51,057 nt of DNA from a virus. Positions 26,201-45,000 of the stretch are shown in pieces. The notes under the pieces are model-generated. The model saw only the letters and a program-made list of their open reading frames with translations. It was not told where the DNA came from and did not search any database. Made by a program: the position numbers and the translations under genes. Position 1 is the first letter of the stretch; the number at the start of each line of letters is the position of its first letter. The stretch covers positions 1 to 51,057 of IMG/VR virus record IMGVR_UViG_3300021960_010990. One strand, given 5' to 3'.

Positions 26201-26206
26201 TATTTA
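26201..26206 (-). promoter_or_regulatory. T4-type late promoter core (gp54-like gene)
   Basis: TAAATA, spacer CAACAGT (seven bases), ATG at 26193. The expected leader is one or two bases. Confidence 0.68.
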
Positions 26207-26227
26207 TTGGACTAAAAAGAGAGGGTA

Positions 26228-26848: not shown

Positions 26849-26870
26849 TTTGTTTTTCTCCTAGTACGAA

Positions 26871-26876
26871 TATTTA
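26871..26876 (-). promoter_or_regulatory. T4-type late promoter core (gp19)
   Basis: TAAATA followed by 22 bases that include an AGGAG ribosome-binding site, then ATG at 26848. The expected leader is about 17 bases. Confidence 0.72.
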
Positions 26877-26908
26877 CTATTCATTATTTCCTTTTTTAAC
26901 TTATACCT

Positions 26909-29900
26909 TTAAAGGCCTAACTCCGCTATCTCGCCTGTGTTCTTCAATCTAACTGGTATGTAGATGAATTCAACTGCTTTTACAGGTTCAATCGCAACAT
27001 CAATATACAGTTCGTTTCTGTCAATTCTTGATGGTGTGTTGTTTGTTTCATCACACACCACAGCAAAGTCGTATAAAGCTCTCTGTGCTGTGAGTTCTAA
27101 GAAGAACGATTCGATAGCTTGCTTGACTTCGTTTCTTGTCAGTGCGTCATTTGGTTCAAATATGAACGGACGAGTTATTTTGTCCAACTGCAATCTAACA
27201 AACGCAACCAATCTTGCTACATTGATTCTATCCAATGCTGAAGCAGTCAGTTGTCTTGTCTTTTGACCAAAGTTTAACAAACCTGCGCCTGTCACGAATG
27301 AAATCGGATTGATATGCACAGAGTACAATGAGTCTCTTAAGCCTTCTGACACTGCTGTTGTTGTGAATTCGCCTTCCGCATCGATGTAACCCACTGATGA
27401 AGCGTTGTCGATCACACCACGTCTTACACCTGCTGGTGCAAACCATGGAAATGCCACTTGATCATTCAGTGCGATTGTTCTCAACATCATGTGTGATGGT
27501 GGAACAGCAACTGATTCTCCTGTGAGATCTGTTGTGAACCCTGATGGATAAAACACACCTGTGAATGAGTTGGTTGTCAATAAACCATCTTCACCGTTGT
27601 CTGCCGCACCCGCTGAGTTATTTGCCCAGTTTGTTACCGCAGTCGAGTTTGGTGCTAATCTGAATGGTGAGTCACCTACCACGAACGCAGTTTCTTTTCT
27701 GTCTGCGTTTAGCGTTTCAAGGTTTGAAATCAGTTCTGGATAACCAGGAGCTGCAAGTAGATTGAATTCTCTTTGCTCTTCTCTCAACTCTGTGGTTGAT
27801 TCCACAGTCGATTTCATCGCCTGCACGATCATATTTCTCTGTGCTTTTCTGCCCATGTATGGTGAACCATCGTTCTTCAAACCTGATGCAGTGATCCATG
27901 CATCCTTTTCACTTGGTAGTGTTGGGTATGTGGTTGTGTCTGCAAAGTTAGTTCTTGTGAACCAATTTTTGACGAATTTCTTGACATTGTAACCTGATCT
28001 TCTTAGGTTGAATCCAAGCATGCCTTTTGGATATAATGCTGGATCTGGCTTGTCTATGTCAACATATGTTGAAGTCAACAAGTCTGTGATCAATGATTCT
28101 TTTTGCACAACATCGAGCGTGCCGTTCACATGATAACGGAAATCAGCGAAAAGTATGCCATCCTGAGATGTTTGATCTGAATTATCAATCAACACCCATT
28201 CTTGTCCATTCAACTGTGATGAATCGTATCTGTAAATCTTTGGATAGTTTTCCAAATCTGCAGTGTCTAACCATAAATCACCATCAACAAGTGCTGTACC
28301 GTCTGACTGCAGAGTTGGCTCTGTGGCAGAAATGATTGGACCTTTTGGATCTGTGTTCGATAGGTCAAATCCCCTCGCATCTGATGATACGTTTTGATAA
28401 CCAGTCCATGCACTTCCATTGTGGATCAAGATGTCCACTTCGTCAACTGTGGTGTTGTACCATGATTGACCGCTTGCTGGATCTTTGGTTGGTTCTGTTG
28501 TGGATTGGATTGCTGTGAATGTTGTTCCAGAGTCTGGTCTGTTTTCAACAGGTGCCCAGTTTGATGCAACGAATGAGTATGAACCGCCCAGTATGGTTGA
28601 GAAATCATCCTTGTCTCCAGCTGGAGCTGTGTAAAGATTTGCGATCTTCTCTTGGGATAGATCTGAATTACCACCATATGAGTTAGCATATGTGGAATTA
28701 AATCCTAAGTCGCTCATCACTGTGTCGTTGTCTGTGAAATAGATGTTACCACCCTTGGCATGTTTCAGTGTGATTCTCTTTGTGTTTGAATCATATGAAG
28801 CAGTGATGTGTTGGAATCCCGCAGCTGATACAGCCGCTACGAAATCGTCCGCATCTGTGGCTGAACTGCCTATGGAAACAGTTTTTTCGTTTAATTTGTT
28901 CGATGCTGTGTTTGAAGTTGCAGAACTATCGATCGTTGTTTCAGCCATTTTGATTGTGACAGTGCCACCATTTGTAAATGCAGATGACTTTGTAGCAATC
29001 TTATTGGATACTATCTGAGTTGATGAACCAACACCAACCGATCTTTTCCATAACACATAATCAATTAACTCGCCCGAATCTGCTGTTGAATCATCCCATT
29101 CTGACTCACCTGAGTTGACTTGAACGAAGTGGCTGTTTGTTGTTAGATTAGAACCACCGCCGATTTTGTCCAACTGTTGTAGTGCTTGCTCTTGTGTCTT
29201 GTACACAGGAGCTGAGTATGATTCGAACACGCCTGTGGTCGAGTTGTATTTTTTGAGTGAAATAGATGCGCCCGAATTAGGCTCTGTTGTTTGGATCCAA
29301 ATCGAACCGGTTGGTCTTGATCTTGAATCGCTTGATCTAAATCCATGATCTTCTGTGTGCTGACCGATGAACACTTTCGGGATGTAGTATCTGCCCGATG
29401 TGATACCAAGCAGTGAACATCCGTCCACTGTTGAGTCACCAACGCTTGTGATTATGATCGAACGAGCCACAGCGGCTGTCGAAGAGTCATCACCTGTTGC
29501 GAGTGGTATCGCGTAAATTTCTAATTTGCCATCTACCGCCGCAGCTGCCACGCCTGAAATTCCCGCAGAGTTGATCGCTGATGCGGCTGTGGTTACTGTT
29601 TGGCCTAACACAACATTAGCACCGTTGATGTTGATGGTAGCATCTGACAGTGAAGGATTTGTTGCTGTGCCTTTGATGGTTGGGTGTGCTGATGACCATG
29701 ATGCATCTTTTGTTGCAGATGAAGCTGATCCAACCTGCACCCATGTGTTCGAACGAGTTTTGTAATACAATCTGTTGTATGGATTTGTTGCCACCACGGC
29801 ATAATCACCGATAGCACCTTTGGTTGTCTTTGGTGCGTTTCCTGTCACATCATCTGTTGAAGTGATGTAGATAGGAGTCTTGACAGTGAATGACTGTGTT

Positions 29901-30355
29901 GAAGAATTCCATTCTTTGATGCCCCATGATGAAGAAGCAAGATCTAACCAATAGAATCCATCATTTGGTGTGCCACCAGGTGCACCAGCTGAACCCTGTA
30001 GGTCTGCTAGATCAATGTTTGCTCTGATCACGTAAGCACGATTGGCTATTCCAAGAAAGGAGTAAGCGGCTTGGAGTCCATATTCGTTGAGTTCGTAACC
30101 TTGAATAGGTGTGCCCGAAGCATCTGTGTAGAAAGTTGGTGTACCGAATGTTTGGGTCAACTCTCTCTGTGATGATACGAGGTAAATTTCGTTTGCGTTT
30201 GTTGACAGCGTGCCTGCCGCTGTTCCTGTTCCTGTGCCTGATGTTTTGTTTTGAGCAGTCGCTACTACTACGAGAGGTACCGCTCCAGGAATTCCGGGCA
30301 CATAGAATGATTCATCTATTACGGAAACCTGTACTCCTGGTGATGTTAAAGCCAT
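26909..30355 (-). CDS. 18: Giant tail sheath protein (gp18)
   Basis: 1148 aa, far longer than T4 gp18 (659). The N-terminus ALTSPGVQVSVIDESFYVPG, the segment TQTFGTPTFYTDASGTPIQG, and the last roughly 350 residues (RAPAPGYPEL region, AFPWFAPAGVRRGVIDNA, LNFGQKTRQLTASALDRINV, VKAVEFIYIPVRL) are clear contractile sheath elements. The centre, roughly residues 130-730, is insertion: several W/Y-rich modules (GFYWLDLASSSWGIKEW; GSIWIQTTEPN; GQSWYNTTVDEVDIL; GDLWLDTADLENYP) and two flagellin-like INSA/GVAA segments. AGGAG and a late promoter precede it. Confidence 0.95.
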   Translation of the reverse strand: MALTSPGVQVSVIDESFYVPGIPGAVPLVVVATAQNKTSGTGTGTAAGTLSTNANEIYLVSSQRELTQTFGTPTFYTDASGTPIQGYELNEYGLQAAYSFLGIANRAYVIRANIDLADLQGSAGAPGGTPNDGFYWLDLASSSWGIKEWNSSTQSFTVKTPIYITSTDDVTGNAPKTTKGAIGDYAVVATNPYNRLYYKTRSNTWVQVGSASSATKDASWSSAHPTIKGTATNPSLSDATININGANVVLGQTVTTAASAINSAGISGVAAAAVDGKLEIYAIPLATGDDSSTAAVARSIIITSVGDSTVDGCSLLGITSGRYYIPKVFIGQHTEDHGFRSSDSRSRPTGSIWIQTTEPNSGASISLKKYNSTTGVFESYSAPVYKTQEQALQQLDKIGGGSNLTTNSHFVQVNSGESEWDDSTADSGELIDYVLWKRSVGVGSSTQIVSNKIATKSSAFTNGGTVTIKMAETTIDSSATSNTASNKLNEKTVSIGSSATDADDFVAAVSAAGFQHITASYDSNTKRITLKHAKGGNIYFTDNDTVMSDLGFNSTYANSYGGNSDLSQEKIANLYTAPAGDKDDFSTILGGSYSFVASNWAPVENRPDSGTTFTAIQSTTEPTKDPASGQSWYNTTVDEVDILIHNGSAWTGYQNVSSDARGFDLSNTDPKGPIISATEPTLQSDGTALVDGDLWLDTADLENYPKIYRYDSSQLNGQEWVLIDNSDQTSQDGILFADFRYHVNGTLDVVQKESLITDLLTSTYVDIDKPDPALYPKGMLGFNLRRSGYNVKKFVKNWFTRTNFADTTTYPTLPSEKDAWITASGLKNDGSPYMGRKAQRNMIVQAMKSTVESTTELREEQREFNLLAAPGYPELISNLETLNADRKETAFVVGDSPFRLAPNSTAVTNWANNSAGAADNGEDGLLTTNSFTGVFYPSGFTTDLTGESVAVPPSHMMLRTIALNDQVAFPWFAPAGVRRGVIDNASSVGYIDAEGEFTTTAVSEGLRDSLYSVHINPISFVTGAGLLNFGQKTRQLTASALDRINVARLVAFVRLQLDKITRPFIFEPNDALTRNEVKQAIESFFLELTAQRALYDFAVVCDETNNTPSRIDRNELYIDVAIEPVKAVEFIYIPVRLKNTGEIAELGL

Positions 30356-30379
30356 TTTTGTTTACTCCTAAGTTATGAA

Positions 30380-30385
30380 TATTTA
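30380..30385 (-). promoter_or_regulatory. T4-type late promoter core (gp18)
   Basis: TAAATA, then 24 bases including TAGGAGT, then ATG at 30355. The expected leader is about 19 bases with a ribosome-binding site. Confidence 0.72.
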
Positions 30386-30438
30386 TTACCATTGGGCTGA
30401 TTATTAGACATTTTTAAAGAGCGATGAAAAGGTTAGCA

Positions 30439-30444
30439 TAAATA
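30439..30444 (+). promoter_or_regulatory. T4-type late promoter core (zinc/HNH-like gene)
   Basis: TAAATA on the forward strand, spacer of five bases (TATGC), then a GTG start at 30450. The spacing supports the GTG start. Divergent to the gp18 promoter. Confidence 0.6.
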
Positions 30445-30449
30445 TATGC

Positions 30450-30818
30450 GTGTTTAATGGCAACGGAAATCGAAGACCACTCTGTAAAGAATGCAACAGC
30501 AAGCCCGCGGCCTACAATTATAGGCGTGGTGACAAAATCTATTACAGGAAAAAATGTGATGCCTGCATAAGGCAGTCATCCAAGTCCACCATCACAACTC
30601 CGGCTTGGCAGAGGGCGGGTTACTCCAAAAAGAAATCGTGTGAGATGTGCGGCTTCAATGCCCAACATCCATACCAATTGGATGTGTACTATGTTGATTC
30701 CAACATGAACAACAACAATACCAATAATCTAAAGACTGTGTGTGCTAACTGCAACAGATTGATGCATGCTAAAAAGTCCGGGTGGCGCCAAGGTGATTTG
30801 ACTGTAGATCATCAATAG
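30450..30818 (+). CDS. Zinc-binding HNH-like protein with altered active site (122 aa)
   Basis: GTG start at 30450, product MFNGNGNRRPLCKEC and onwards. Eight cysteines form two CxxC...CxxC sets: C12/C15 with C36/C39, and C64/C67 with C98/C101. The second set frames the pattern LDVYYVDSNMNNNNTNN then LKTVCANCNR, which is an HNH-endonuclease layout except that the usual His-His after DV is Tyr80-Tyr81. I recall related proteins in T4-like marine phages. It may be a catalytically dead, DNA- or protein-binding derivative. It converges on gp1 with a 50-base overlap. Confidence 0.7.
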   Translation: MFNGNGNRRPLCKECNSKPAAYNYRRGDKIYYRKKCDACIRQSSKSTITTPAWQRAGYSKKKSCEMCGFNAQHPYQLDVYYVDSNMNNNNTNNLKTVCANCNRLMHAKKSGWRQGDLTVDHQ

Positions 30819-31401
30819 CACGATGCACTTTTCTTTTTAATTTTTCCACATCATCGTTGTTTAATATTTTGAAGTTGAAATTGGTGTGAGCCCATGCCCA
30901 TTCCGACGGGTGTATGCCTGTGGGAGGTATGCCTTGATCCTTGTACAGATCAAACCATTCAGGGTTTTCACCACGCTTGATGCGCCACACTGTGCCGCCT
31001 ATGGATTTTATCATGTTGACTTCGTTGGGGAAGCGTGTGTCGGGAACCACCCAATTGGTCACAGGGTTGTGTATGAGTGTTTTTTTGACCAAACTCACCC
31101 ATATGCCATCATAGAAACCATGACGCATGCATTCTGTGCCGAACACCTGTAGCACATGCCTTGGAGTGATGTCCTTGTTCATCTCTTTGGACCAAAATGT
31201 GTCGGGTGTTTCTCGCCATGCTCTGCCTTCTTTGGTGTCACCTTCCAGCAGATGTCTGGGCCAGTCGAACATCTCCGCCACAGCGTCCTTGAGCTTGTCT
31301 GCGAATGATATTTTTTTGAATCCGTACTCTTGGACTAATATGTCGGCCACGGTGCCTTTGCCCGAGCCTATTAAACCGCAGATGCCTATGACTTTACCCA
31401 T
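30769..31401 (-). CDS. 1: Deoxynucleoside monophosphate kinase (gp1-like)
   Basis: 210 aa (T4 gp1: 241). P-loop GLIGSGKGT at residues 9-17, then ISFADKLKDAVAEMFDWPRH (substrate lid typical of phage dNMP kinases), ITPRHVLQVFGTECMRHGF and WVVPDTRFPNEVNMIKSIGG. It phosphorylates dNMPs to dNDPs for phage DNA synthesis. Six bases lie between a TATAAT box and the ATG, so it is probably transcribed early to middle and leaderless, unlike the late genes around it. The 3' end overlaps the convergent zinc/HNH-like gene. Confidence 0.9.
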   Translation of the reverse strand: MGKVIGICGLIGSGKGTVADILVQEYGFKKISFADKLKDAVAEMFDWPRHLLEGDTKEGRAWRETPDTFWSKEMNKDITPRHVLQVFGTECMRHGFYDGIWVSLVKKTLIHNPVTNWVVPDTRFPNEVNMIKSIGGTVWRIKRGENPEWFDLYKDQGIPPTGIHPSEWAWAHTNFNFKILNNDDVEKLKRKVHRAIDDLQSNHLGATRTF

Positions 31402-31407
31402 AGCACA

Positions 31408-31436
31408 ATTATACGATCTTTTTTAGCCGATTACAA
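31408..31436 (-). promoter_or_regulatory. Sigma70-type promoter of gp1
   Basis: Reverse strand: TTGTAA (31436-31431), 17-base spacer, TATAAT (31413-31408), six bases (TGTGCT), ATG at 31401. It overlaps the last codons of gp13. Confidence 0.6.
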
Positions 31437-32208
31437 ATGATAATGGAGTGCCGCCCTCGGAATAATTGCCTATTTCCGATTCCAGTTTTTCCATTTCGTT
31501 GAGTCCTTCGTTTTTGAGAGTGTCACCATTCAGTTGACCGCCACCCTGTGGACCTGCAATGGTTGAAAATTTAGAACGGGCCTCGCCCAGTGTGAACTTG
31601 CTCACAGCCAGTGTGTATTCTCTGATCCATGGTTTTGCATAGATGTCTTGTAGCAGTATGAAGTCTGGTCTGTAGTTGGATTGTGATAACAGCACAGTTT
31701 CTCGAGATCTCTGTCTTCTGTGTATGGTTAATCTTCTTGTGGGTTGATCGAAGTGAAAATTGATGAATCCACCAAACATCCTCATCACCAATTCCTGATA
31801 ACCAGCAAACATGTCATAAGTTGCCAATCCGCCAATTCTACCTGTTTGTAATAGATATATGTTGGTGTAGGCCAATTCAAAAGGATCAAAGGAAGTACCG
31901 CCTTCTGACGAAGAAGCACCGCCCACTGTTCTGCGATAGATTTGGTTGACACGGATCACTTCCGACGGCAGTGTGTACACAGACTGATCTGGTTGTAGTT
32001 CAAGAAAACCATATGATTCTTCTATAGAATTAGATGATCTCTGACGGAACTTGTCCACAGCGGAGGTGAATGCCATCTCCAAGTGTTTGACGTCGAGTTC
32101 CACTTCTATCATGCCATCGCCCAAACGAGTCTTGACATAGTCAAAAATCTCTTGTTTTGCTTTAATGGTGTCTTGATCCGTGATCGTGTTGTTGACTGTG
32201 TCTACCAT
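31423..32208 (-). CDS. 13: Neck protein (gp13-like)
   Basis: 261 aa (T4 gp13: 309). Conserved blocks that I recall from gp13 of T4-like marine phages are present: VDKFRQRSSNSIEESYGFLE, VYTLPSEVIRVNQIYRRTVG, LVMRMFGGFINFHFDQPTRR, YAKPWIREYTLAVSKFTLGE, ARSKFSTIAGPQGG. It forms part of the head-tail neck with gp14. TAAATA lies six bases before the ATG, back to back with the promoter of gp14, which is transcribed in the opposite direction. Confidence 0.85.
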   Translation of the reverse strand: MVDTVNNTITDQDTIKAKQEIFDYVKTRLGDGMIEVELDVKHLEMAFTSAVDKFRQRSSNSIEESYGFLELQPDQSVYTLPSEVIRVNQIYRRTVGGASSSEGGTSFDPFELAYTNIYLLQTGRIGGLATYDMFAGYQELVMRMFGGFINFHFDQPTRRLTIHRRQRSRETVLLSQSNYRPDFILLQDIYAKPWIREYTLAVSKFTLGEARSKFSTIAGPQGGGQLNGDTLKNEGLNEMEKLESEIGNYSEGGTPLSFVIG

Positions 32209-32214
32209 ACTATG

Positions 32215-32220
32215 TATTTA
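32215..32220 (-). promoter_or_regulatory. T4-type late promoter core (gp13)
   Basis: TAAATA, spacer CATAGT (six bases), ATG at 32208. Leader expected at about one base. Confidence 0.7.
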
Positions 32221-32226
32221 ATCCAA

Positions 32227-32232
32227 TAAATA
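32227..32232 (+). promoter_or_regulatory. T4-type late promoter core (gp14)
   Basis: TAAATA, spacer GTTAAA (six bases), ATG at 32239. It forms a mirror pair with the gp13 core, six bases apart. Confidence 0.7.
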
Positions 32233-32238
32233 GTTAAA

Positions 32239-33387
32239 ATGCCAAGATTATCACTTTACAAACCCGAGAAGGGAAATGACTACAATTTCATGGATCGTGT
32301 GATTGCAGAACGCTTCCAAGTGGGTGGCACAGATGCTTATATTCACAAGTACATTTCACCTGTAGATCAGGGCGAACTAAACGATGCCACACAGCCACAG
32401 AGATCGGGAGATTCTCTCAATGAATTGGCCATCCAGGATCTGTTGTTTTTGGAAAACAGAGATCGCAAGTATGATCCAGATGTCTACAAGGGCAGGGTTA
32501 TCTACAATGTGCAGGACATAGATTTTGATCTGTCACAGTTTGGACTGTTTTTACAGAACGATCAACTGTTCATGCTGTTCCATTTGAACGACACCGTGGA
32601 CATGTTGGGAAGGAAGTTGATGGCGGGAGATGTCATCGAACTGCCACACCTCAAGGACGATTTTTCACTGGACGAGACCGACACCGAAACACTCAAAAGA
32701 TATTACGTGGTGGAAGATGTTTCCAGGGCATCGGAAGGTTTTTCACAAACTTGGTATCCACACCTGTTGAGAGCTCGTGTCAAGGGCATCAAGGACGCAC
32801 AGGAATTCAGAGACATACTTGGCGACAAGGATGAGAACACCCATCAAAAAACTCGTGACACAGATTTGGCCATCAACCAAGCCATCATCGATCAGGCAGA
32901 GTCAGACGCACCCAAGTCTGGATACAACACCAAACCATTACATGTCATGCCAACCGACGAAGAGGGCAAGGTGGCGTTGGTCACTGTGGACGATGACATG
33001 CTCACAGACACAGGTCACATCAATGTGGACAAAGTTTACCAAACACCCCAGGCCAACGGATACTTGGAGGGATACCTCACAGGAGATTCTATACCGGCCA
33101 ACGGTGAAACCTACACAGCTGCCACTTCATTCCCTGCCAATCCCACAGAAGGCATGTTTGTGTTGAGAACGGACTATTCACCAAACAGATTGTTTAGATT
33201 CGACGGAAGAAGATTCGTGAAAATAGAGGACAATGTGAGACAGACCATGACACAAAACAACACACGCAACACTCAGAAGACTGGATTCATCAACAACACC
33301 AACACAACCACCCTCAAGGATGGTTCATCAACAACACCAGAGAGAGTGGCGCTCAGCAAACTGTTGAAACCTAAGGCGGACAACTAA
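32239..33387 (+). CDS. 14: Neck protein (gp14-like)
   Basis: 382 aa (T4 gp14: 256). The N-terminus PRLSLYKPEKGNDYNFMDRV then ERFQVGGTDAYIHKYISP, and the core VYKGRVIYNVQDIDFDLSQF, LFLQNDQLFMLFHLNDTVDM and KRYYVVEDVSRASEGFSQTW, are typical of gp14 in T4-like marine phages. The C-terminal roughly 150 residues are polar and N/T-rich, with an FRFDGRRFVKIED module, and may be an extension. It completes the neck with gp13. Its stop overlaps the ATG of gp15 by one base. Confidence 0.85.
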   Translation: MPRLSLYKPEKGNDYNFMDRVIAERFQVGGTDAYIHKYISPVDQGELNDATQPQRSGDSLNELAIQDLLFLENRDRKYDPDVYKGRVIYNVQDIDFDLSQFGLFLQNDQLFMLFHLNDTVDMLGRKLMAGDVIELPHLKDDFSLDETDTETLKRYYVVEDVSRASEGFSQTWYPHLLRARVKGIKDAQEFRDILGDKDENTHQKTRDTDLAINQAIIDQAESDAPKSGYNTKPLHVMPTDEEGKVALVTVDDDMLTDTGHINVDKVYQTPQANGYLEGYLTGDSIPANGETYTAATSFPANPTEGMFVLRTDYSPNRLFRFDGRRFVKIEDNVRQTMTQNNTRNTQKTGFINNTNTTTLKDGSSTTPERVALSKLLKPKADN

Positions 33388-34868
33388 TGCAACATTTCTA
33401 TGACGCCCAGATAAGAAGATACATCCTGCAGTTCATCCGCATGATGTCGAATTTTTCTTATGTGACAGGTAAAAATTCCAAGGGTGCTTCGGAGACACTG
33501 CAGGTTCCGGTCAAGTACGGAGACATGAGCCGACAGGTGGCGCAGATCATCAAGAAGGGATCCGAGAACACACTGATAGCGGCTCCCCAGATTTCATGCT
33601 ACATCACTGGATTGACGTATGACAGACCAAGGATGCAGAATCCCTATCATGTGGATAAGAAACACATCCGTGAAAGAGAATATGATGCCACCACAGACAC
33701 CTACACTGGTGCTCCCGGTGAATCCCACACCATTGAAAGAATCATGCCCACACCATTTGAAATAACTTTCAATGCAGACATATTCACCACCAACACAGAT
33801 CAAAAATTGCAGATACTTGAGCAAATACTTGTGTTATTCAATCCCGCACTGGAACTGCAAACCACAGACAATTTTTTGGATTGGACTTCACTGTCATTTG
33901 TTGAACTAACCAATGTGAACTTTACTTCACGTGCAATTCCACAAGGCATAGCAGATGAAATTGATGTGGCCACACTGACATTCAGGACGCCCATATGGTT
34001 GTCACCACCTGCCAAACTCAAAAAACTGGGAGTGATAGAAAAGATCATCGCCAGCATATACGACGAGGACGCAGGAGTCGTCGACGTGCAGGGCATCCTG
34101 GGAGAATCGCTGTTGTCCAAACAGTACGTCACCCCGGGTCAGTATGCTGTGCTGTTGATAGGCAACAGGATGACACTGTTGGGCACCAATCAGAAATCCG
34201 GAGGCCATGCCACCAACACACTCAACAAGGCATTCGAATCCCAATCACAGTATGGCAACAAAACCAATTGGCTCAAATTAGAATCATTGTATTCCAAAAC
34301 CATCACCGGCGGGCTCACCCAGGTCAAACTGCAACAGAGCGCGACCGCTGTGAATGGTGATGACATCATCGTGGAGGTAACCGGCACCTGCGCCATAGAT
34401 CCACAGGACGAGTACACCCTGTTGTTCACCGTGGACCAGGACACAGTGCCCACCAACACCATAAATGCTGTGGATGCCGTGATAAATCCACTCACATTCA
34501 ACCCAACAGGAGTTGCCAATGGCACCAGATACCTGTTGACAGAATCCATCGGTAGCGCCAAGGATGATTCCACACAGAACACGGGACCATCTGCTTGGGG
34601 CAATCTTATTGCAAGTGCCAACGACATTGTAGAAAAGGTTGGGGGTGTATGGGTGGTGGACTTCAACACTGATTTCGACGATGGATCCACGCAGTTGCGT
34701 AGGGGAGGATTGGATTCTTCTTCTGTGGGGGACAGCACATTCAGGACAGTACACTATGTCACCAACGTGACCACAGGTGTGCAGTACAAATGGTTACCAG
34801 ATGCCGGCTATTGGGTTAAATCCTTCGAAGGTTTTTACCAGCCAGGAACTTGGTCCATCCAGTTCTAA
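33387..34868 (+). CDS. 15: Tail sheath stabiliser / tail completion protein (gp15-like)
   Basis: 493 aa (T4 gp15: 272). The N-terminal roughly 230 residues hold the gp15 blocks: QHFYDAQIRRYILQFIRMMS, LQVPVKYGDMSRQVAQIIKK, PQISCYITGLTYDRPRMQNP, QKLQILEQILVLFNPALELQ, TFRTPIWLSPPAKLKKLG. The C-terminal half (from about 240) adds a beta-rich region ending in YKWLPDAGYWVKSFEGFYQP. The N-terminal part caps the tail tube and sheath at the neck. The C-terminal part is additional and could decorate the neck. Confidence 0.85.
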   Translation: MQHFYDAQIRRYILQFIRMMSNFSYVTGKNSKGASETLQVPVKYGDMSRQVAQIIKKGSENTLIAAPQISCYITGLTYDRPRMQNPYHVDKKHIREREYDATTDTYTGAPGESHTIERIMPTPFEITFNADIFTTNTDQKLQILEQILVLFNPALELQTTDNFLDWTSLSFVELTNVNFTSRAIPQGIADEIDVATLTFRTPIWLSPPAKLKKLGVIEKIIASIYDEDAGVVDVQGILGESLLSKQYVTPGQYAVLLIGNRMTLLGTNQKSGGHATNTLNKAFESQSQYGNKTNWLKLESLYSKTITGGLTQVKLQQSATAVNGDDIIVEVTGTCAIDPQDEYTLLFTVDQDTVPTNTINAVDAVINPLTFNPTGVANGTRYLLTESIGSAKDDSTQNTGPSAWGNLIASANDIVEKVGGVWVVDFNTDFDDGSTQLRRGGLDSSSVGDSTFRTVHYVTNVTTGVQYKWLPDAGYWVKSFEGFYQPGTWSIQF

Positions 34869-34883
34869 TCGATAAAATATAGT

Positions 34884-35306
34884 ATGAGTGAAATCACAGC
34901 CACAGGTTGTTTGTTCTACGCCAAAACCACCAAAAGATTCCTGTTCCTAAATCGCCTGCTCAAACAGAAGGGCACCTGGGGCATGGTGGGTGGCAAATCA
35001 GTGGCCACCGAAACACCTTGGCAGGGATTACAGCGAGAGATAGTGGAAGAAGTTGGACATCAACCCAACATACAAAAGACCATTCCGCTGGAACTGTTCA
35101 TCAGCAAGGACACTCGCTTCAAGTTCCACACCTTCGTGTGTGTGGTTGACCAAGAATTCATCCCCAGATTGAACGGGGAACACTCGGGTTACGCTTGGGT
35201 GTCCATCAATTGTTGGCCACAACCTCTGCATGATGGTGTGAGGAAAACTCTCCAAAACAAGAGCATAAAAACAAAACTTCAAACTATATTGGATCTGATC
35301 GTTTAG
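34884..35306 (+). CDS. Nudix hydrolase
   Basis: 140 aa. The Nudix box is complete from G37 to G58: G-x5-E43-x7-R51E-x2-E55E-x-G (GGKSVATET, PWQGLQREIVEEVG). A preceding TWGMVGGK strand and later FKFHTFVCVVDQEF complete the fold. It hydrolyses a nucleoside diphosphate linked to another group, for example oxidised nucleotides, ADP-ribose, NADH or an RNA cap. ATAAAATA, a weak late-promoter match, lies four bases before the start. The stop overlaps the convergent gene by four bases (TTAG). Confidence 0.88.
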   Translation: MSEITATGCLFYAKTTKRFLFLNRLLKQKGTWGMVGGKSVATETPWQGLQREIVEEVGHQPNIQKTIPLELFISKDTRFKFHTFVCVVDQEFIPRLNGEHSGYAWVSINCWPQPLHDGVRKTLQNKSIKTKLQTILDLIV

Positions 35307-35521
35307 GGTCTAAGAACAACTGGTGCTTGTTTGGGTCCTTGACCGGGTGCTTTGTAGTCAGCGATGGTGCCACCGTCTGTGACCCATTCTGCAACGATGG
35401 AATCGTCTGAGGCGACCACTGTTCTTTTCAATCTGCCCGAGTCCTGATATGCTACTTTTACTGAGGAAGCATCTGATTCATACTGTACGCCAAGTATCTG
35501 TGTTTTTGATGTGAGTGACAT
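35303..35521 (-). CDS. Small hypothetical late protein (72 aa)
   Basis: MSLTSKTQILGVQYESDASS and onwards. It looks beta-rich (VKVAYQDSGRLKRTVVASDD; SIVAEWVTDGGTIADYKAP) and ends in a proline/glutamine tail. TAAATA lies five bases before the start codon. It may be a small tail or fibre accessory. No family recognised. Confidence 0.6.
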   Translation of the reverse strand: MSLTSKTQILGVQYESDASSVKVAYQDSGRLKRTVVASDDSIVAEWVTDGGTIADYKAPGQGPKQAPVVLRP

Positions 35522-35526
35522 ACTAC

Positions 35527-35532
35527 TATTTA
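35527..35532 (-). promoter_or_regulatory. T4-type late promoter core (72-aa gene)
   Basis: TAAATA, spacer GTAGT (five bases), ATG at 35521. Predicted leaderless. The first bases of the motif overlap the stop of the fibre gene upstream. Confidence 0.68.
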
Positions 35533-36975
35533 TTAATCTTCGATCAGTGTTCTCAACAATTTAATGTCTGAACCTGTGGCCTGAGCAGATCCTCGCAATC
35601 GCACATTGCCTGCATCGATGTCCACAGAAAATGTGATCAGATCGTTGTTGCCTGTCTTCAACAGTGAATACTCTGCAATTTGCACATTAGTGCCATCGTG
35701 TAGCACCATGATCTCACCGGATTGATATTCGGATGTTGAAGTATTTTTAATTCTGTAAACATATTTGGCGGCCCTGTATGTAGTTGCGGACCAAGTGTCT
35801 ATGTCCTCCACAGCAGAATCCACTTGTGTGTTGTTGATCTCTGACAGTTGAACATTGTTGATTGACACTGTGCCATTCACTGTGAGTCCATCTGTTTCGA
35901 TGGAATCATTGATCCTCACAGAAGCAGAATCACCCGAAGCGATGGTGTTGACCAACAGTGTGCCATTGGGGATGGAAATACCACCCGACACAGTGGTGAT
36001 CAATCCCGGACTGACCAGGCCACCGTGATACAGTTCTGTGGCGCCACCGTGACCCGCTGTGACAAATGTCTGAGTGCCGTCATCGTTTTGTAGCGAAATG
36101 TTTCTGCCTCGCACATACACTTCTCCGGATGTGCCTGCCTTGGTCAAGTACACATCTGTGCCATCGTGTGTGAGAGTTAGGTCTGCTGTGGAATCTCCTG
36201 ATCCAATGGTGATGGTGCCATTGCTGGTGAGGTCGATGTTGCCACTCAGTTGGATGTCGTCTGCTTGGATATCTGTGGCCTGTAAGGGTGCTGTGATTGA
36301 CACTGCTGATGAATCATTGGAGCCAATTTGATTCACAGTGATATCACCGAAAATTGATGTTCCAGAAGATTCAATGTTAGCAACCAGTGTTGCCACAGAT
36401 GAATCGGTGATAGATGTTGCTGTGCCTACTGATGTTGTTAAAACTGCTTTGAATTTGTCATCACCCTCATTCCAATACAGTGCGGCGTTGTTGCCTGCAG
36501 AACCACGTTCGATCATGATACCCGAATCCACATCAGCACCACCTGAATTTGTTTCGGACAAAATTAATAATGGATCCGAAACAGTGATGTTGGTCGAATT
36601 GACAGAAGTTGTTGTGCCCGAAACGGTCAAGTTGTCAACTTGTATGTTGCCCGCTGTGATTGTGCCCGATGTGGTTAAGTTTTCATTGTCGAATGATATA
36701 GTTCCAGATGAATCTGTGATGGATCCGTTGCTTATTGTTAGATTTACAACTGATAGTGTACCAGCCACTTGCAGAGTTGAATCCAATTGTACGGGTGATT
36801 TGAAACTCACTGCTGTGGAATCATCTGCTGAAATTTCGTTGACTTTGAGTCGAGCTGAGGCTACCACAGCACCAGTGCCCGCGGGATTCAGTGTCAAATC
36901 TTCGTTGGAATTTGTGGTGATGGTGTCTGCGTATATGATACCTCGTGAAGTCAGATCGCTCGTGAATATGGGCAT
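35533..36975 (-). CDS. Tail fibre-like protein (480 aa)
   Basis: Starts MPIFTSDLTSRGIIYADTIT. It is built from short beta repeats rich in G, S, T, D (ISNGSITDSSGTISF; GNIQVDNLTVSG; LLILSETNSGGADVDSG). It shares long cassettes with the 2252-aa gene: SETNSGGADVDSGIMIERGS and GGATELYHGG...VSGGISIPNGTLLVN. The C-terminal block DSAVEDIDTWSATTYRAAKY to the end is also shared and probably forms a distal or trimerisation domain. This pattern is typical of fibre and appendage proteins in T4-like marine phages. TAAATA lies five bases before the ATG. Confidence 0.75.
   Translation of the reverse strand: MPIFTSDLTSRGIIYADTITTNSNEDLTLNPAGTGAVVASARLKVNEISADDSTAVSFKSPVQLDSTLQVAGTLSVVNLTISNGSITDSSGTISFDNENLTTSGTITAGNIQVDNLTVSGTTTSVNSTNITVSDPLLILSETNSGGADVDSGIMIERGSAGNNAALYWNEGDDKFKAVLTTSVGTATSITDSSVATLVANIESSGTSIFGDITVNQIGSNDSSAVSITAPLQATDIQADDIQLSGNIDLTSNGTITIGSGDSTADLTLTHDGTDVYLTKAGTSGEVYVRGRNISLQNDDGTQTFVTAGHGGATELYHGGLVSPGLITTVSGGISIPNGTLLVNTIASGDSASVRINDSIETDGLTVNGTVSINNVQLSEINNTQVDSAVEDIDTWSATTYRAAKYVYRIKNTSTSEYQSGEIMVLHDGTNVQIAEYSLLKTGNNDLITFSVDIDAGNVRLRGSAQATGSDIKLLRTLIED
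35885..36190. repeat. Fibre cassette C, copy 1
   Basis: Encodes GDSTADLTL...GTDVYLTKAG...GGATELYHGG...VSGGISIPNGTLLVN...RINDSIETDG. The matching stretch is 44330-44640 in the 2252-aa gene. Its end (SVRIND-x-IETDG) also appears at the right edge of the window. Homologous at the protein level over about 100 residues, with long near-identical DNA runs. Confidence 0.75.
36427..36690. repeat. Fibre cassette A, copy 1
   Basis: Encodes the TAGNIQVDNLTVSGTTTSVN...SETNSGGADVDSGIMIERGS...NEGDDKFKAVL unit. Further copies lie at about 40990-41255, 43575-43840 and, more diverged, 50755-50950. DNA identity with the 41-kb copy is high over the whole unit. Confidence 0.8.
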
Positions 36976-36980
36976 ACGAG

Positions 36981-36986
36981 TATTTA
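36981..36986 (-). promoter_or_regulatory. T4-type late promoter core (480-aa fibre gene)
   Basis: TAAATA, spacer CTCGT (five bases), ATG at 36975. Predicted leaderless. Confidence 0.7.
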
Positions 36987-36993
36987 CCGCTTT

Positions 36994-37536
36994 TTATGGT
37001 TTGATTTCGACGAGGTTAAATTTATACTTTTTGCCGTTGCGATTGTTGATGATGAACAGATCGTCCGCGCCTTCTTGGATGGTCCAATGGCCTTCTTCGT
37101 TTCTGAGATGCAAGTCTGAGGTGTACACGTTGGCGAATCTCAGTGCATCCGATCCCAAATTGATGGTTGCATTGGCATCGGGCAGGATGTCTTGTGTGAT
37201 TTCAATCTTGCCGGTGCCGTTGGGTGCTATGATGAGATTTTCATTGGTACCCACTGTGCTCAGTGTGGTATTATCGATTTTCATGGATCCCGCTTGTAGC
37301 GTGCCATTCACATCCAGTGTGGCCGAAGGTGATGCTGTGTTAATACCTACTTGGGCAGTATCTGGAAATAGAATAAGATCTGAAGTATTATTGGTTGATA
37401 ATTGATTGGCATTGAACGTTAGATTGTCTACATGCCACTGTGTGACGGCGTTTTCATTGGAAATCCCGGCCGATAATTTGGCTTCTGTGATAGCTGCATC
37501 TGTGATAACACCTGTTGTGACTCTTCCTATTGCCAT
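36994..37536 (-). CDS. Tail fibre-associated protein (180 aa)
   Basis: The N-terminus MAIGRVTTGVITDAAITEAK resembles that of the 2252-aa fibre (MAIGRITGQML), suggesting a shared attachment motif. Repeats such as AQVGINTASPSATLDVNGTL and LIIAPNGTGKIEITQDILPD follow. The C-terminal part (NLGSDALRFANVYTSDLHLR then HWTIQEGADDLFIINNRNGK) looks like a compact tip domain. Structural role inferred from these repeats and context. A full TATAAATA late promoter precedes it. Confidence 0.7.
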   Translation of the reverse strand: MAIGRVTTGVITDAAITEAKLSAGISNENAVTQWHVDNLTFNANQLSTNNTSDLILFPDTAQVGINTASPSATLDVNGTLQAGSMKIDNTTLSTVGTNENLIIAPNGTGKIEITQDILPDANATINLGSDALRFANVYTSDLHLRNEEGHWTIQEGADDLFIINNRNGKKYKFNLVEIKP

Positions 37537-37543
37537 GTATGAT

Positions 37544-37551
37544 TATTTATA
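37544..37551 (-). promoter_or_regulatory. T4-type late promoter, full TATAAATA (180-aa gene)
   Basis: TATAAATA on the reverse strand, then seven bases (ATCATAC), then ATG at 37536. The expected leader is one or two bases. Confidence 0.78.
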
Positions 37552-37582
37552 CCATTGTATAGACTCGTTGGATAAAATAGTA

Positions 37583-37588
37583 TATAAT
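37583..37588 (+). promoter_or_regulatory. -10-like box of the 116-aa gene
   Basis: TATAAT followed by six bases (ATTAAC) and the ATG at 37595, again predicting a leaderless start. No good -35 box is seen, and an ATAAAATA run ten bases upstream is an alternative late-type element. Confidence 0.45.
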
Positions 37589-37594
37589 ATTAAC

Positions 37595-37945
37595 ATGGCA
37601 GGCGAAAAAGACATAGAATTAGTTTTAGGACTCAGCAAGGATGATCCTCAAACCAAGATCACGTTCACCAAACAGGCCATGGCCGAATATCCTGAACACC
37701 TGCGTGGGTTGACCGTGGAGTACCTAATGGGTGGTGATCCCGAGGGCAAGAAGAAAATGGATCTGCTCTCTAACTTTAGGTCGGAATTAAATTTTTGGTG
37801 CAGGGATAACTGCAAGGGGATCTACAAAATAGAAGAACTGTTCGAGCCCGAAGGTATGAGGGTGTATTTTGTCGAGTTCGACGATGCTGTGGCCTTTGAA
37901 CGAGACCACAACACCGTGACTCCGCCGCCCATGCTTAACGCTTAG
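37595..37945 (+). CDS. Small cytoplasmic hypothetical protein (116 aa)
   Basis: Begins MAGEKDIELVLGLSKDDPQT. The central part (TFTKQAMAEYPEHLRGLTVE; YLMGGDPEGKKKMDLLSNFR) and LFEPEGMRVYFVEFDDAVAF suggest a small alpha/beta domain. The frame is open upstream, but the ATG at 37595 is the first sensible start. It ends with a four-base convergent overlap (TTAG) with the 347-aa gene. Not recognised. Confidence 0.65.
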   Translation: MAGEKDIELVLGLSKDDPQTKITFTKQAMAEYPEHLRGLTVEYLMGGDPEGKKKMDLLSNFRSELNFWCRDNCKGIYKIEELFEPEGMRVYFVEFDDAVAFERDHNTVTPPPMLNA

Positions 37946-38985
37946 GCAACTTCCATTGATATTCTTTTGGCTTTGAACACCGATCCTGGTGTCTGGGCAG
38001 CTCCGTACAAAATCACAGATCCGCCTGATAGTCCACTTGTGAAAGTGATCAAATCATTGTTGCCTGTGTGCACCTTGGAGTATTCTGAATGATATGCTGA
38101 TGAGCCATCGTGAGTGACGATGATTTCACCCGCTTGGTATTCACCCGCACCGGAGTTTTCTATGGTATAGAAATATTTGGCAGCTCTGTACACTGATGCA
38201 CTGAACGAATCTACCTGTTCAACCGCTGAATCAACCTGTGAGTTAAGGATGATTTCTGACACAAGAAATTCTTGTATGGTGTTTCCGTCGATGGATCCTT
38301 CGTACTTGTTGGTCTCTGAGTTTAACCTCAATAAACCTTCATACACCACTGGTCTCTGTGCTGTGGTGCCCGCTGGCACTCTCATGCCCGCATTGGTTTG
38401 TGATGCCAGTGCAAATCCGAACGCTGTGGATGAATCAGTCACTGGTGCCACCAATATGTCGCCGTCCTGGATGTCACCTGTCTGAGCGTCCACGTTGAGT
38501 AGATCATTGATGTACTGGACTGTGTTGTCGTCCACGTATCCTTTGGTCGCTCCATCGGTTGGTTCTGTCGGAGTTCCGATTTCTTGCAGTCTTGCACCGT
38601 TGAACGTCAACCCTGTTGAGTCTGCCACTATGCCACCGTTTGATATCGTGACTCCAGCCGCACTGAAGTCTCCACTCACCCTGACGTCTGTGTTGATGTC
38701 GATGCCTGTGGAATCCAATTGGCCTATGGTGTTTACCTGTAGTATCGTGGTCACTGAAAGAGTGTCTGGCACTACAACCACACCTGTCGTGGAGTCTACG
38801 ATCAAATTACCGGAAACTGTTGTGATGGTGTTGTCTGTGGCCGCACCTACTGTTACGTTACCTAATTGGGAACCTTCTGATGCCACAGTACCTGTGAATG
38901 TGGCTGTTCCCCCCGAAACGGTGATGACGTTGGCTACATCGCCGATGTCAAGACCATTCTTTATTCTGAAGTTTTTTGCTGTCAT
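37942..38985 (-). CDS. Tail fibre-like protein (347 aa)
   Basis: Starts TAKNFRIKNGLDIGDVANVI after M, a leader found in fibre proteins of T4-like marine phages. Beta repeats (VTVSGGTATFTGTV; GNVTVGAATDNTITTVSGNL) are followed by ARLQEIGTPTEPTDGATKGY, the VATKGYVD-type motif of phage fibres. The MRVPAGTTAQRPVVYEGLLR module is shared with the 2252-aa protein. The C-terminal DSAVEQVDSFSASVYRAAKY block is the same domain as in two other fibre genes here. A GGGGAT site precedes the start, in a 35-base leader region. Confidence 0.75.
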   Translation of the reverse strand: MTAKNFRIKNGLDIGDVANVITVSGGTATFTGTVASEGSQLGNVTVGAATDNTITTVSGNLIVDSTTGVVVVPDTLSVTTILQVNTIGQLDSTGIDINTDVRVSGDFSAAGVTISNGGIVADSTGLTFNGARLQEIGTPTEPTDGATKGYVDDNTVQYINDLLNVDAQTGDIQDGDILVAPVTDSSTAFGFALASQTNAGMRVPAGTTAQRPVVYEGLLRLNSETNKYEGSIDGNTIQEFLVSEIILNSQVDSAVEQVDSFSASVYRAAKYFYTIENSGAGEYQAGEIIVTHDGSSAYHSEYSKVHTGNNDLITFTSGLSGGSVILYGAAQTPGSVFKAKRISMEVA

Positions 38986-39020
38986 GGTTCACTATCCCCT
39001 TTTGACTTGTTAATTACTTC

Positions 39021-39026
39021 TATTTA
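39021..39026 (-). promoter_or_regulatory. T4-type late promoter core (347-aa gene)
   Basis: TAAATA with 35 bases to the ATG at 38985. The leader contains an AGGGG-type ribosome-binding site. Confidence 0.6.
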
Positions 39027-39031
39027 TTGGA

Positions 39032-42000
39032 TTACTGCACTTCTAAGTGTACACGCTTTAACTTGATCTTTGAGTTGGGTGCTTGTGCAGAACCTCTCAG
39101 TCTAAAGTTGCTGGCGTTGATGTCCACTGAGAACGTGATCAAGTCGTTGTTGCCGGTGCGAGTGATACCAAACTCAGTGATTTGAGCGTTGGAACCATCG
39201 TGTAGCACATGGAGTTGTCCAGTTTGGTACTCTGATGTGTCATCGTTTTCTATCACATAGTGATAGTGTGCAGCTCTGTATGTTGTGACTGCCCATGTGT
39301 CGATGTCTTCTACTGCGGAATCAACATCCGAATTTGTGATAGTTGTGAATCCAGCACCGCCACCAGCTCCGCCTGCGCCACCGTCGAAGCCTTGGATAAC
39401 CACGATCCTTGCTCCTGAGTGTACAGCAGAATCGAATGTGATCGCTGTGGGTGATATGGTGTAGTTCTGAGTTGGTTCTTGTAGTATGTTGTCGATGTAA
39501 ACGATCAGTCCAAGTGCGCCGTTGTTGCCATTGCCCGCAGTCGGATCTGAAATATTAGAGAAGTTGTAAGTTGCTCCGCCGTCACCTGTGAACACATCTT
39601 TGGTGAGTGTTTCTGCACTGCCCGCCATCGCAAATGAGTTCCATGTTGAACCATCTGTCGAACCTTCGTACAATCCTGTCTCTGTGTTGTATCTGATAAC
39701 ACCTGAGTAGATCGGAGGTCTTTGAGCAGTTGTGCCCGCTGGTAATCTCATACCAGTCACCATCTGTGATGATACTGTGAACACGTTGGATGAATCATCG
39801 TTTACAACAAGGATGTCGCCATCTTGTTTGGAAGCTGAATCAACATCGCCGATGTCATTCAATGAAGCCACTGATGAAGCAGAAATTTGTGTGTCAACGT
39901 ATGCTTTGATACTCTGCTGTGTAGCAAGAGCAGTTGCTGAATCAGATGACATTGTGTCTTCATCAAGTATAGCATTTACAGAAATACCATTTGAAATTGT
40001 AAAGTTTGTGCCAACATCCAATGCACCATCCACATTTAATCCATCATTGATCACAACTGCTGTTGAATTTGATGATGAAATTATATTTGTTACGATCGAT
40101 AATGTTGTCAGTTGGTCGATGCCATCTAAGTTGATGTTATTGAATCCAATCGTGCCATCTGTATCTGTGATTTGACCATCTGTGATTGATAATGTACCAA
40201 CATCAAATTGATTTGCTGTGATAGTACCACCAGTTGCTGTGATATTACCTGTGGTGTCTAAGTTTTCGTCACCAAAGTCAATGGTGCCTGATGTTGATGT
40301 AATAGAACCGTCACCGATTGATACATCGCCAAATGATGAACCAGAACCTGCTGATACCGTGCCACCATTTACAACAATGTTGCCAGATGACTGTATGGTC
40401 GAAGTCTGTAGAGGTGATGTGATCGATACAGCAGTTGAATCTTTTGCGCCAATTTGATTGACTGTGATGTTGTCATTCAATGCCGCTGTTACGCCATTGC
40501 CTGCCACTGTGAGTGTGATCGAATCACCTGATCTAAATTCTAAATCTTGATCACCTGCTAAATTTACTGAACCTGCGTTGGAAGCTGAGTCACCTAATGT
40601 TATAGTTCCGCCTGCGTTGGCAGCCACATAATCGATAACAGCCGCAACAGTTGGAATTGATGTGTCGTTGTCTGATGAAGCAAGTCCTTCGCCCTCGGTC
40701 ACTATAGCTGTGCCGGCAAAGTCTGCCACTTCCAAGTTGGTGATAGAGTTGCCTGTGCCATTTGCGTCGAATGTTTTGTTAGTAAATGTTAAAGTGTCAG
40801 AAGCAATGTTGGCATCTTGAGCATCAACATATGCTTTTATGCTCTGTTGTGTGGCAAGTGCTGTTGCTGAATCTGATCCAAATGCATCTTCGTCCAATAT
40901 GGATGATACAACCACTGACTCCGAACCAAATACTAAACCACCAATGTTGACAGTTGCGTAGGATGAGTCAGTTACTGATGTAGCTGTGCCTACAGATGTT
41001 GTTAAAACTGCTTTCCATCTGTCATCACCCTCATTCCAATACCAAGCCGCATTGTTGCCTGCAGATCCACGTTCTACTAATATACCTGAATCCACATCTG
41101 CTCCACCTGAATTTGTTTCAGAAAGGATTATTAATGGATCTGACACAGTGATGTTGGTCGAATTTACAGAAGTTGTTGTGCCTGACACAGTCAAGTTGTC
41201 AACTTGTATGTTGCCCGCTGTGATTGTGCCCGATGTGGTTAAGTTCTCATCGTTGAAACTGATTGTGCCGGATGAATCTGTGATCGAACCATCAGCAAGT
41301 GTCAAGTTGCCTACAGTTGATCCTGTGGCAGCTGAGAATGTGCCTGACATGGTGACATTGCCAACCAATGTAGAAGCACCTGACACTTGTAGTGTGCCAT
41401 CAATTTGAGTAGCACTGGTGATTGATACAGCTGATGAATCCTTAGCACCAATTTGATTGACTGTGATGTTGTCATTCAAGTTGAATGTTACACCTGTGCC
41501 AGCCACAGTTGGAGTGATAGAATCGCCTGTTCTGAATTCTAAGTCATTTGTGCCAACAGCCACTGTGCCTGTGTTGGAAGCGGAATCTGAAAAACTAAGA
41601 TTTGTGATGGATGATGTCTGTGAATCAACATATGATTTTGTAGCAACATCTGATGCTTGAGTCGGATCTGCAACATCTGTGAGTTGCATCTGACCAAAAT
41701 TTAATTGTGTAGAATCTGTTGAAGTTATCACATTGCCAGCGATTTGTACAGAACCAATTGTTGCTGAACCGTTTACATCAACATTGCCTGATGTTTGAAT
41801 TGATGTTGCTTGTAATGGTGATGTGATTGAAACTGCTGTGGAGTCTTTTGCACCGATTTGATTGACTGTGATGTTGTCATCTAAATTTAGAGTGAGTGTG
41901 TCTGCTGACACAGTTGAATTTAATGAATCACCGCCGGCGATCTTGAATGTTTCGCCCAATGATACCGCTGTGCCTGTGGAATCATCACCTACCAGTGTGA

Positions 42001-45000
42001 TGGTTGATGTTGCCAACTTGGCGTTGGTGATGCCAGCGTCTTTGACTCTGAGTGTGTCTGCATTGATTTCAATTGTGGAATCGTCAACATTCACAGACAG
42101 TTCGTTGCCTGATTTGGCTAAACCAGCGCCTGCTACAATTTGACCAGCACCAGAGAATTGAACAAATATAAAGTTGTCTGAACCAATTGTGGTAACAGTT
42201 TCTGTTTGAACAAAACCAGCGTCACCGAATAGTGTGCCTTCTTGGACGAACATGAAGTCACCACCAGCTGCTTCTGCTGGAGTGTCCATGTCTGTGGCAC
42301 GAGTTAATACAGTGCCGCCTGTGGCCCAAGTGTAAACACCGTTGTGTGCTTGGTTGGATTCGTCTTTGACTATGATTCTGTCACCGTTCTGTAGTGTGTA
42401 ACCATCCAGTGTGGTCAGTGCTGTGGACAGTGTGAGTGTGGCTCCAACACCTGATGAGCCGTTGTCATAAGTGACTGTGTCTGATGTTAGAGTTGTTAAT
42501 GAATCTGTGGTGGCTGCTTTGGCAGGAGCATGAACATGAAGTCCTTCTGCCACCGCATCAACATATGCCTTGATCGACTGTTGAGTTGCTAAAGCAGTTG
42601 CTGAGTCTGAAGCAAAGTTATCTTCGTCTAAAATTTGTGTGACTGTGACACCCTCGTTGAATCCGAAATTACCGTTTACTTGTAGTCCGTCATTAACTGT
42701 GACTGCTGTGGAATCATCTGATTCAATGGTGTTTACTTTGACAGTTTGGAAATCACCTGTTGTGGCAGTCAATGAGTTGATGCCTGCTATGTTAGATGAG
42801 CCGTCTAATACCAGTGCTTTGTTGGCAGCTGCTGTGCCGTCTGTGATGCCATCTAATTTTTCCAAATCAGTTTCGTTTAGATCAGCGCCACCAATTATGA
42901 ATGAAGTGCCTGCTGTGATCGAACCTGATGATGAAACATTACCAACCAGTGTAGAAGCACCTGACACTTGTAGTGTGCCATCAATTTGAGTAGCACTTGT
43001 GATTGATACAGCTGATGAATCTTTTGCGCCAATTTGATTGACTGTGATGTTGTCATTAAGTGCGGCAGTCACACCGTTTCCTGCCACTGTGAGTGTGATT
43101 GAATCACCCGATCTTAGTTCTAATGCTTGATCACCTGATAGGCTCACTGCACCTGCGTTGGAAGCCGAATCTCCTAAGTTTAGCGTGCCACCTGCGTTGG
43201 CAGACACATAATCTATGACAGCCGCTGTGGTCGGAATTGATGTGTCATTGTCTGATGAAGCAAGTCCTTCCCCCTCAGTTACTATAGCTGTGCCAGCAAA
43301 ATCCGCCACTTCCAAGTTGCTGATTGAATTACCTGTGCCATTTGCATCAAATGTTTTGTTTGTGAATACCAGTGAATCAGAAGCGATGTTGGCATCTTGA
43401 GCATCAACATATGCTTTGATCGATTGCTGTGTGGCAAGTGCTGTTGCTGAATCTGATCCAAACGCATCTTCGTCTAATATGGATGATACAACCACTGACT
43501 CCGAACCAAATACTAAACCACCTGCGTTGATAGTCGCGTATGCGTCGTCTGATATGTTAGTTGCTGAACCTGTAGAAGTAGACAGCACTGCTTTGAATCT
43601 GTCATCTCCTTCGTTCCAATAAAATACTGCGTTGTTGCCTGCCGAACCACGTTCGATCATGATACCTGAATCCACATCGGCACCACCCGAATTTGTTTCA
43701 GATAGGATCAACAGTGGATCTGACACAGTGATGTTGGTCGAATTTACAGAAGTTGTAGTTCCTGACACAGTCAAGTTATCAACTTGTATGTTGCCCGCTG
43801 TGATAGTTCCTGTTGTGGTTAAGTTCTCATCGTTGAAACTGATTGTTCCAGATGAATCTGTGATTGAACCGTCTGCTAAAGTTAAATTGCCTACTGATGA
43901 TCCTGTGGCAGCTGAGAATGTGCCTGACATGGTGACATTGCCAACCAGTGCAGATGTGCCTGAAACTTGTAAGGTGCCATCCACTTGTGTGTTGGATGTG
44001 ATTGATACAGCTGATGAATCTTTTGCACCGATCTGATTGACTGCGATGTTGTCATTTAGGGCAGTGGTTACTCCATTGCCTGCCACTGTCATTGTGATGG
44101 AATCACCCGATCTGAATTCTAAATCTTGACCACTATTAATATTAACTGAGCCTGCGTTGGAAGCTGAGTCACCCAATGTGATTGTACCGCCTGCCACTGC
44201 ATCAACATATGCCTTGATTGACTGTTGTGTGGCAAGAGCATTGGCAGAATTGGATGCCATGTTGTCTTCGTCGAGTATTGCTGTGATGCCCTGTCCGTTG
44301 GCTATAGTGAATGTGCCACCCACGTCCAATGAACCGTCGACGCCTAATCCGTCATCTATTCTCACAGAAGTTGAATCGCCTGAAGCGATCACATTCACCA
44401 ATAGTGTGCCGTTCGGTATTGAAATACCTCCCGATACAGTTGTGGTTAATGCCGGACCAGCCACGCCACCATGATACAGTTCTGTGGCTCCGCCATGGCC
44501 ACCTGTGATGAATGTCTGTGTGCCATCGTTGTTTTGGATTGAGAAATTTCTTGATCTTATATAAGTTTCACCTGATGTGGCAGACTTTGTGATGTAAGCA
44601 TCGGTGCCATCGAAGTTAACTATGAAATCTGAAGTTGAATCGCCTGAACCGATTGTGATAGAAGCATTGGCAGTCATGTCAATGTTACCGCTCAGGTTGA
44701 TGTCATTGGCGTTCACATCTCCTGTGGTTGTCAGTATTTCATTGCCAAAATTGATCGTGCCTGAAGCAGATGTGATTGAACCACTTGCTAAAGTAATATC
44801 ATTAGCAATAGTTGTGTTGCCAACTAAAGATGAAGTACCAGCCACCTGGAGTGTTGAATCTAATTGAGTTGGTGATTGAATTGAAACTGCTGACGAATCT
44901 TTGGCAGCGATCTCATCCACTGTGATTCTGTCATTGAGAGCAGATGTAACTGTGTTGCCCGACACACTCAATGTCATGGAGTTGCCGGATTTGAATTTTA

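Follow-up and report, generated by a model that had tools for sequence, protein, structure and literature searches.

The window analysed here is a 51,057-nt stretch of DNA, positions 1 to 51,057 of IMG/VR record IMGVR_UViG_3300021960_010990, from an uncultured T4-like virus of bacteria. It contains a giant modular tail-fibre-like gene, P0001 (39032-45790, on the minus strand, as are the other fibre-like genes, the repeat features and the UvsX, UvsY and gp32 genes described below), which is a single open frame of 2252 codons encoding 2252 aa. Pieces of P0001 match 70 phage records by tblastn, several of which are annotated as tail fibre, with tail fibre-named features of Synechococcus, Pelagibacter and Methylophilales phages among them, and with a query coverage of 4-14% per record for the 40 that were listed out of the 70. 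Tail sheath, sheath stabiliser, tail tube, head closure and terminase families are all found in the same window and, judged by this gene content, the surroundings of P0001 are those of a T4-type contractile-tailed phage. By homology and by its tail-gene neighbourhood P0001 resembles a modular T4-type tail fibre protein, but no library family recognised it, with no match in PHROG (E ≤ 0.001) or Pfam (E ≤ 0.01). Its product is a putative fibre on the virion.

The terminase matched 2533 phage records, all at less than 60% identity, and the best matches among the 12 listed are PA5oct-like Pseudomonas phages at ~55% identity. A scan of genome contigs gave 28 matched stretches, with no relative among them. 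Elsewhere in the window, genes at 2747-4771 and 12446-13078 match PHROGs for dioxygenase, tRNA methyltransferase and galactose-3-O-sulfotransferase, with a strength that ranges from weak to clear.

P0001 is built of a dozen module types, to which letters were assigned in this analysis using profiles that were seeded with window segments and extended over 275 distinct fibre-type ORFs. The profiles went through two iterations and may have drifted in distant ORFs, where long runs such as A-A-A and T-T-T are called. Read in this way, P0001 has the module string N-C-H-F-A-B-K-A-D-F-A-B-C-D-E-F-A-A-D-G-F-A-H-F-A-B-C-D-E-F-A-B-B-A-D-U-T. The G module matches orf22 of PDB entry 9efk (E 1.4e-22). Three other fibre-like genes are present in the window. 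P0002 (35533-36975; 480 aa) has the modules A-B-C-A-K-A-T, as judged by sequence comparison and profiles, and P0005 (37942-38985), identified by profiles, is a small gene ending in module T. The third, P0003 (47123-51055), is open at the window end; by profiles its N side reads C-H-A-D, and its C side matches phrog_8578, of unknown function. Module T (~95 aa) forms the shared C-terminal end of P0001, P0002 and P0005 and is without a Pfam match; 101 further T calls were made in other ORFs, some of which are probably fragments or profile drift.

Within P0001 the cassette F-A-B-C-D-E-F-A occurs twice. Copy 1, the C-terminal copy, lies at 40418-41545, and copy 2, the N-terminal copy, at 42998-44125, as delimited by repeat alignment and module profiles. 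The two align without gaps over 1128 nt at 83.2% identity, in frame and with a spacing of 2580 nt. The original prediction, that 40440-41460 and 43020-44040 encode the same motif series twice with high similarity, is borne out: these blocks are 84.0% identical over 1021 nt, again ungapped, and the full alignment answers the concern that their identity might prove low. In their 375-codon core the copies agree at 327 residues and at 923 of 1125 nt, overall they are identical at 88% of residues, and the longest exact run common to both is 50 nt. The best ungapped internal match of the P0001 protein scores 1683, against a shuffled maximum of 74 over 233 fibre-type ORFs shuffled once each. The cassette repeat in P0001 is thus confirmed. 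Between the copies lies an interval (41546-42997) carrying the modules A-D-G-F-A-H, defined by the repeat alignment and profiles. The F-A pair occurs six times in P0001, and both copies begin and finish with it. All 23 of the internal repeat pairs listed for P0001 have offsets divisible by 3, and with its repeats in frame, the length of the gene could change without its loss. A monomer model of the cassette was of low confidence (pLDDT 61.8, pTM 0.33) and therefore shows no fold.

Internal repeats are common in genes of this type. An ungapped diagonal scan of 233 fibre-type ORFs, all of at least 300 aa, five of them from the window and with near-duplicates included (e.g. L021, L029, L033 and L034), found an internal match scoring at least 300 in 57 and at least 150 in 116; since gapped repeats are missed by such a scan, these counts are lower bounds. 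The P0001 repeat has the highest score of the set, the next being 1603. Examples in other phages include repeats of 90% identity over 272 aa (L126), 89% over 214 aa (L155) and 88% over 164 aa (L085).

The two copies are not recent. Comparison of copy 1 with copy 2 gives dN 0.10 and dS 0.63 (NG86), and 59 of 188 four-fold sites differ, so that the copies appear old and constrained rather than a fresh and unstable repeat. As a yardstick we compared the sheath-stabiliser gene of the window with that of L070, the nearest relative compared when contigs of the same phage are set aside, and found 89 of 209 four-fold sites to differ. L069 was left out of this four-fold comparison, where its TAA codon broke the codon alignment, and the dS of this gene was not computable for L071, L072, L074, L085, L126 and L135. 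If rates are alike and there has been no conversion, the duplication would be somewhat younger than the split from L070. It is far older than strain-level variation, as a sibling contig, IMGVR_UViG_3300044513_003278 (L069), matches window positions 25299-42370 with only 8 mismatches in 17,072 nt. As things stand, the repeat appears to be an old part of the gene that has been retained.

Divergence between the copies is patchy. Silent differences cluster when measured by the sum of squared runs (P 0.0005), and no significant clustering was found for the longest run of silent differences (P 0.18). The clustering fits past patchy exchange or uneven constraint. The neighbouring gene P0002 also contains part of the cassette: its segment 36398-36720 is 86.8% identical to the copy 1 segment 40962-41284, and at three-way sites 36 join copy 1 with P0002, 26 join the two copies and 17 join copy 2 with P0002. 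A high-identity island lies in an A module at the end of copy 2 (42933-43059), paired with a partner island in the A module that opens copy 1 (41352-41478). Over these 127 nt identity is 93%, and the flanks are at 63% and 45%. The A-module tract, which was chosen by eye, has 9 differences in 126 nt compared with 189 in 1128 for the whole block (Fisher P 0.004).

Such islands were also sought more widely, among the 233 ORFs of the window and 144 loci. All 34 that were found are in frame. Their centres fall in modules A (1), B (4), D (2), K (2), E (1) and U (1), with 23 outside modules. A role for the A module as a general recombination joint found no support, as the only island centred on A is the window's own, which is about what chance would give for its 5% coverage; the test is a weak one, since A makes up only 5% of residues, profiles may drift and the islands are not independent, 11 being from L175. 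This last is a 177-kb relative contig with two fibre-type ORFs, of 2435 and 2560 aa in the locus, and contributes those 11 of the 34 islands.

Taken together, these comparisons suggest that the cassette was duplicated in frame within P0001 and then diverged with exchange, a reading to which we give a probability of about three in four. A cassette of ~375 aa would have been duplicated in frame, most likely via recombination between homologous F-A modules at both ends, and the copies would then have diverged under purifying selection, with patchy exchange between them and also with the neighbouring gene P0002. The interval is bounded on each side by a nearly identical A module, which suggests later insertion or exchange through A. 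The lasting effect would be a longer fibre, with P0001 forming a shaft of repeated modules followed by a C-terminal module common to two neighbouring genes. The repeat, its modules, its frame, its divergence and its patchiness are shown directly, whereas how the crossover ran, in which order the steps came and what they did to fibre length are inferred.

To weigh this origin, the copies were compared with 252 external loci (258 were fetched and 6 of the same phage left out) in 14 segments of 150 nt. By an ungapped count of identical letters, in which external matches are handicapped because they are local alignments and can be shorter, the copies beat the best external locus in 13 of 14 segments. 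At offset 450 the external locus L074 is slightly ahead of the partner copy (112 vs 111), and at offset 375 an external locus leads by local alignment (113 vs 100). In 4 of the 14 segments (offsets 0, 375, 900 and 975) one copy has a closer match elsewhere in the same genome than in its partner, and the blocks are therefore mosaics. In L150 the P0002 relative shows 78% identity over 716 aligned nt, beyond which it switches to other modules. The segment matches, the 127-nt island and the switch in L150 favour in-frame duplication followed by exchange. In other observations on this relative, the P0002-like frame continues past module T without a stop, and where L136 1-10565 and L150 682-3408 lie on the same contig the P0002-like gene is ~7 kb from the sheath-stabiliser gene, compared with ~0.7 kb in the window. 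No single-copy or tandem form of P0001 was found.

The likeliest alternative is that each block was acquired on its own from a pool of fibre cassettes shared among phages. Fibre modules are seen in other phages in many arrangements, C-D-E is present once each in three other ORFs, and over part of module C copy 1 resembles P0002 more closely than it does copy 2. Among the best 80 of 147 loci in a search with copy 1, and setting the same phage aside, L002 matches residues 1-374 at ~62% identity over the block and has C-D-E-F-A called once, with no B; L182 also lists residues 2-374 in that set, but inside a match of 450 nt. Separate uptake nevertheless sits poorly with the two copies matching each other better than any of the 252 external loci in 13 of 14 segments of the ungapped comparison, and with their sharing 88% of residues compared with 62% for copy 1 and L002. 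We regard it as unlikely, and duplication within P0001 remains the preferred origin.

The original prediction also placed a UvsX/UvsY/gp32 recombination system in the same window, and all three genes are indeed found by PHROG match: a UvsX-like recombinase at 13719-14804 (phrog_97, E 2.5e-69), a UvsY-like recombination mediator at 13068-13523 (phrog_231, E 3.5e-17) and a gp32-like single-strand DNA-binding protein at 14879-15859 (phrog_1192, E 1.6e-66). These are general T4-type equipment, and their presence is therefore no specific evidence for recombination at the repeat. It had further been proposed that the direct repeats allow unequal recombination, so that fibre length could vary between virion lineages. 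As an account of the past the proposal holds up: recombination between in-frame modules is the likely origin of the P0001 repeat, and long-term change of the fibre is supported by the in-frame modules, the clustered silent differences, the 93% island and the differing module strings of relatives. For the present day nothing found supports it: the copies are old, copy 1 and its flanks are unchanged in the one other contig found to reach the gene, and no length variant was seen.

That contig, the sibling, holds copy 1, both flanks and just over half of the interval, and ends before copy 2. From 36782 to 41932 it does not differ from the window, and its four differences within P0001, half of the eight in all, are silent and fall between the copies (41933-42263), near the end of the sibling at 42370. 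Its sheath-stabiliser gene (33387-34868) has a stop at 34292 in place of the tyrosine codon of the window, which may reflect a genuine truncation or else an error of sequencing or assembly. Two exact probes common to both copies (32 and 34 nt, each found twice in the window) were found in one other IMG/VR contig, again the sibling, in a search that may omit records closely similar to the window. Neither a shorter nor a longer form of P0001 was seen, with this single other contig found to reach the gene. Given one contig and the possible omission of near records, the idea of length variation has been weakly tested rather than refuted. More distantly, the sheath-stabiliser protein of L071 is 92% identical to that of the window, and no match in L071 to the fibre region of the window was found past 35521, over ~6.2 kb (blastn, E 1e-10). 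This supports a change of the fibre genes between lineages, and not within the population of the window.

A broader proposal is that the fibre cluster is a self-recombining cassette system, in which the UvsX machinery would duplicate, delete and swap in-frame modules over at least three neighbouring genes, resetting fibre length and specificity between closely related lineages. We consider this somewhat less likely even than separate uptake. More doubtful again is that the repeat is an active contingency locus where frequent recombination varies fibre length between virions. The direct repeats are in frame, as such a locus would have them, with exact runs of up to 50 nt and UvsX, UvsY and gp32 encoded in the window; T4 UvsX has been described as joining matches of 3-4 nt at cut ends (PMC8262927), and in EfV12-phi1 a 1.8-kb segment of the tail fibre has been described as varying in copy number within a population (PMC6365445). 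However, a contingency locus would have near-identical copies, and frequent crossover or conversion should keep them alike, whereas these are old and distinct (83% identity, dS 0.63), and copy 1 with its flanks is unchanged in an independent contig. Least credible is that the second copy is an assembly artefact, a misjoin of strain variants: although copy 2 and its junctions are seen in this window alone, the independent contig ending at 42370, that contig bears out copy 1, the flanks on both sides and slightly more than half of the interval. The copies also differ at 17% of sites with no exact run above 50 nt in common, 55-mers that recur in the window do so only between P0002 and copy 1, and the frame is open throughout its 2252 codons.

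P0001 offers a clear example from nature of how a very long phage fibre can grow, with modules duplicated and exchanged in frame both inside a gene and between adjacent ones. Should the cassettes still be recombining, the length of the fibre and its recognition of hosts could be adjusted without the need for new genes. Related genes often contain repeats of this kind, and laboratory work has already revealed the general mechanism in another phage.

That phage is the Enterococcus phage EfV12-phi1, for which in-frame tandem duplications of 1.8 kb, inside a putative tail fibre gene of 6.6 kb, have been reported in all four coevolved replicates, with long reads revealing mixed copy numbers (PMC6365445). 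P0001 likewise has a kilobase-scale in-frame duplication inside a putative tail fibre gene. The copies described in EfV12-phi1 are tandem, arose in laboratory coevolution and vary in number, whereas those of P0001 are 17% diverged and 1.45 kb apart, with no variation seen. In the gene 37 adhesin of T4, duplications of a small domain have been described (Tetart et al. 1996, as cited in PMC9004378). This too is duplication inside a T4-type fibre gene, but there it concerns a small adhesin domain tied to host range, and in P0001 a long cassette at a great distance from the C-terminus. Domain mosaicism and fragment shuffling have been documented broadly in phage receptor-binding proteins (PMC10684548), and here as well fragments are shared and shuffled among fibre-type proteins; the sharing described in that survey is between otherwise unrelated proteins, and in the present case it is also within one gene and between neighbours. 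Finally, orf22 of PDB 9efk (658 aa, 18 chains) carries the G module at residues 246-389 and the D module at about 472-499, both of which occur in P0001, but it is shorter than P0001 and its module order is different.
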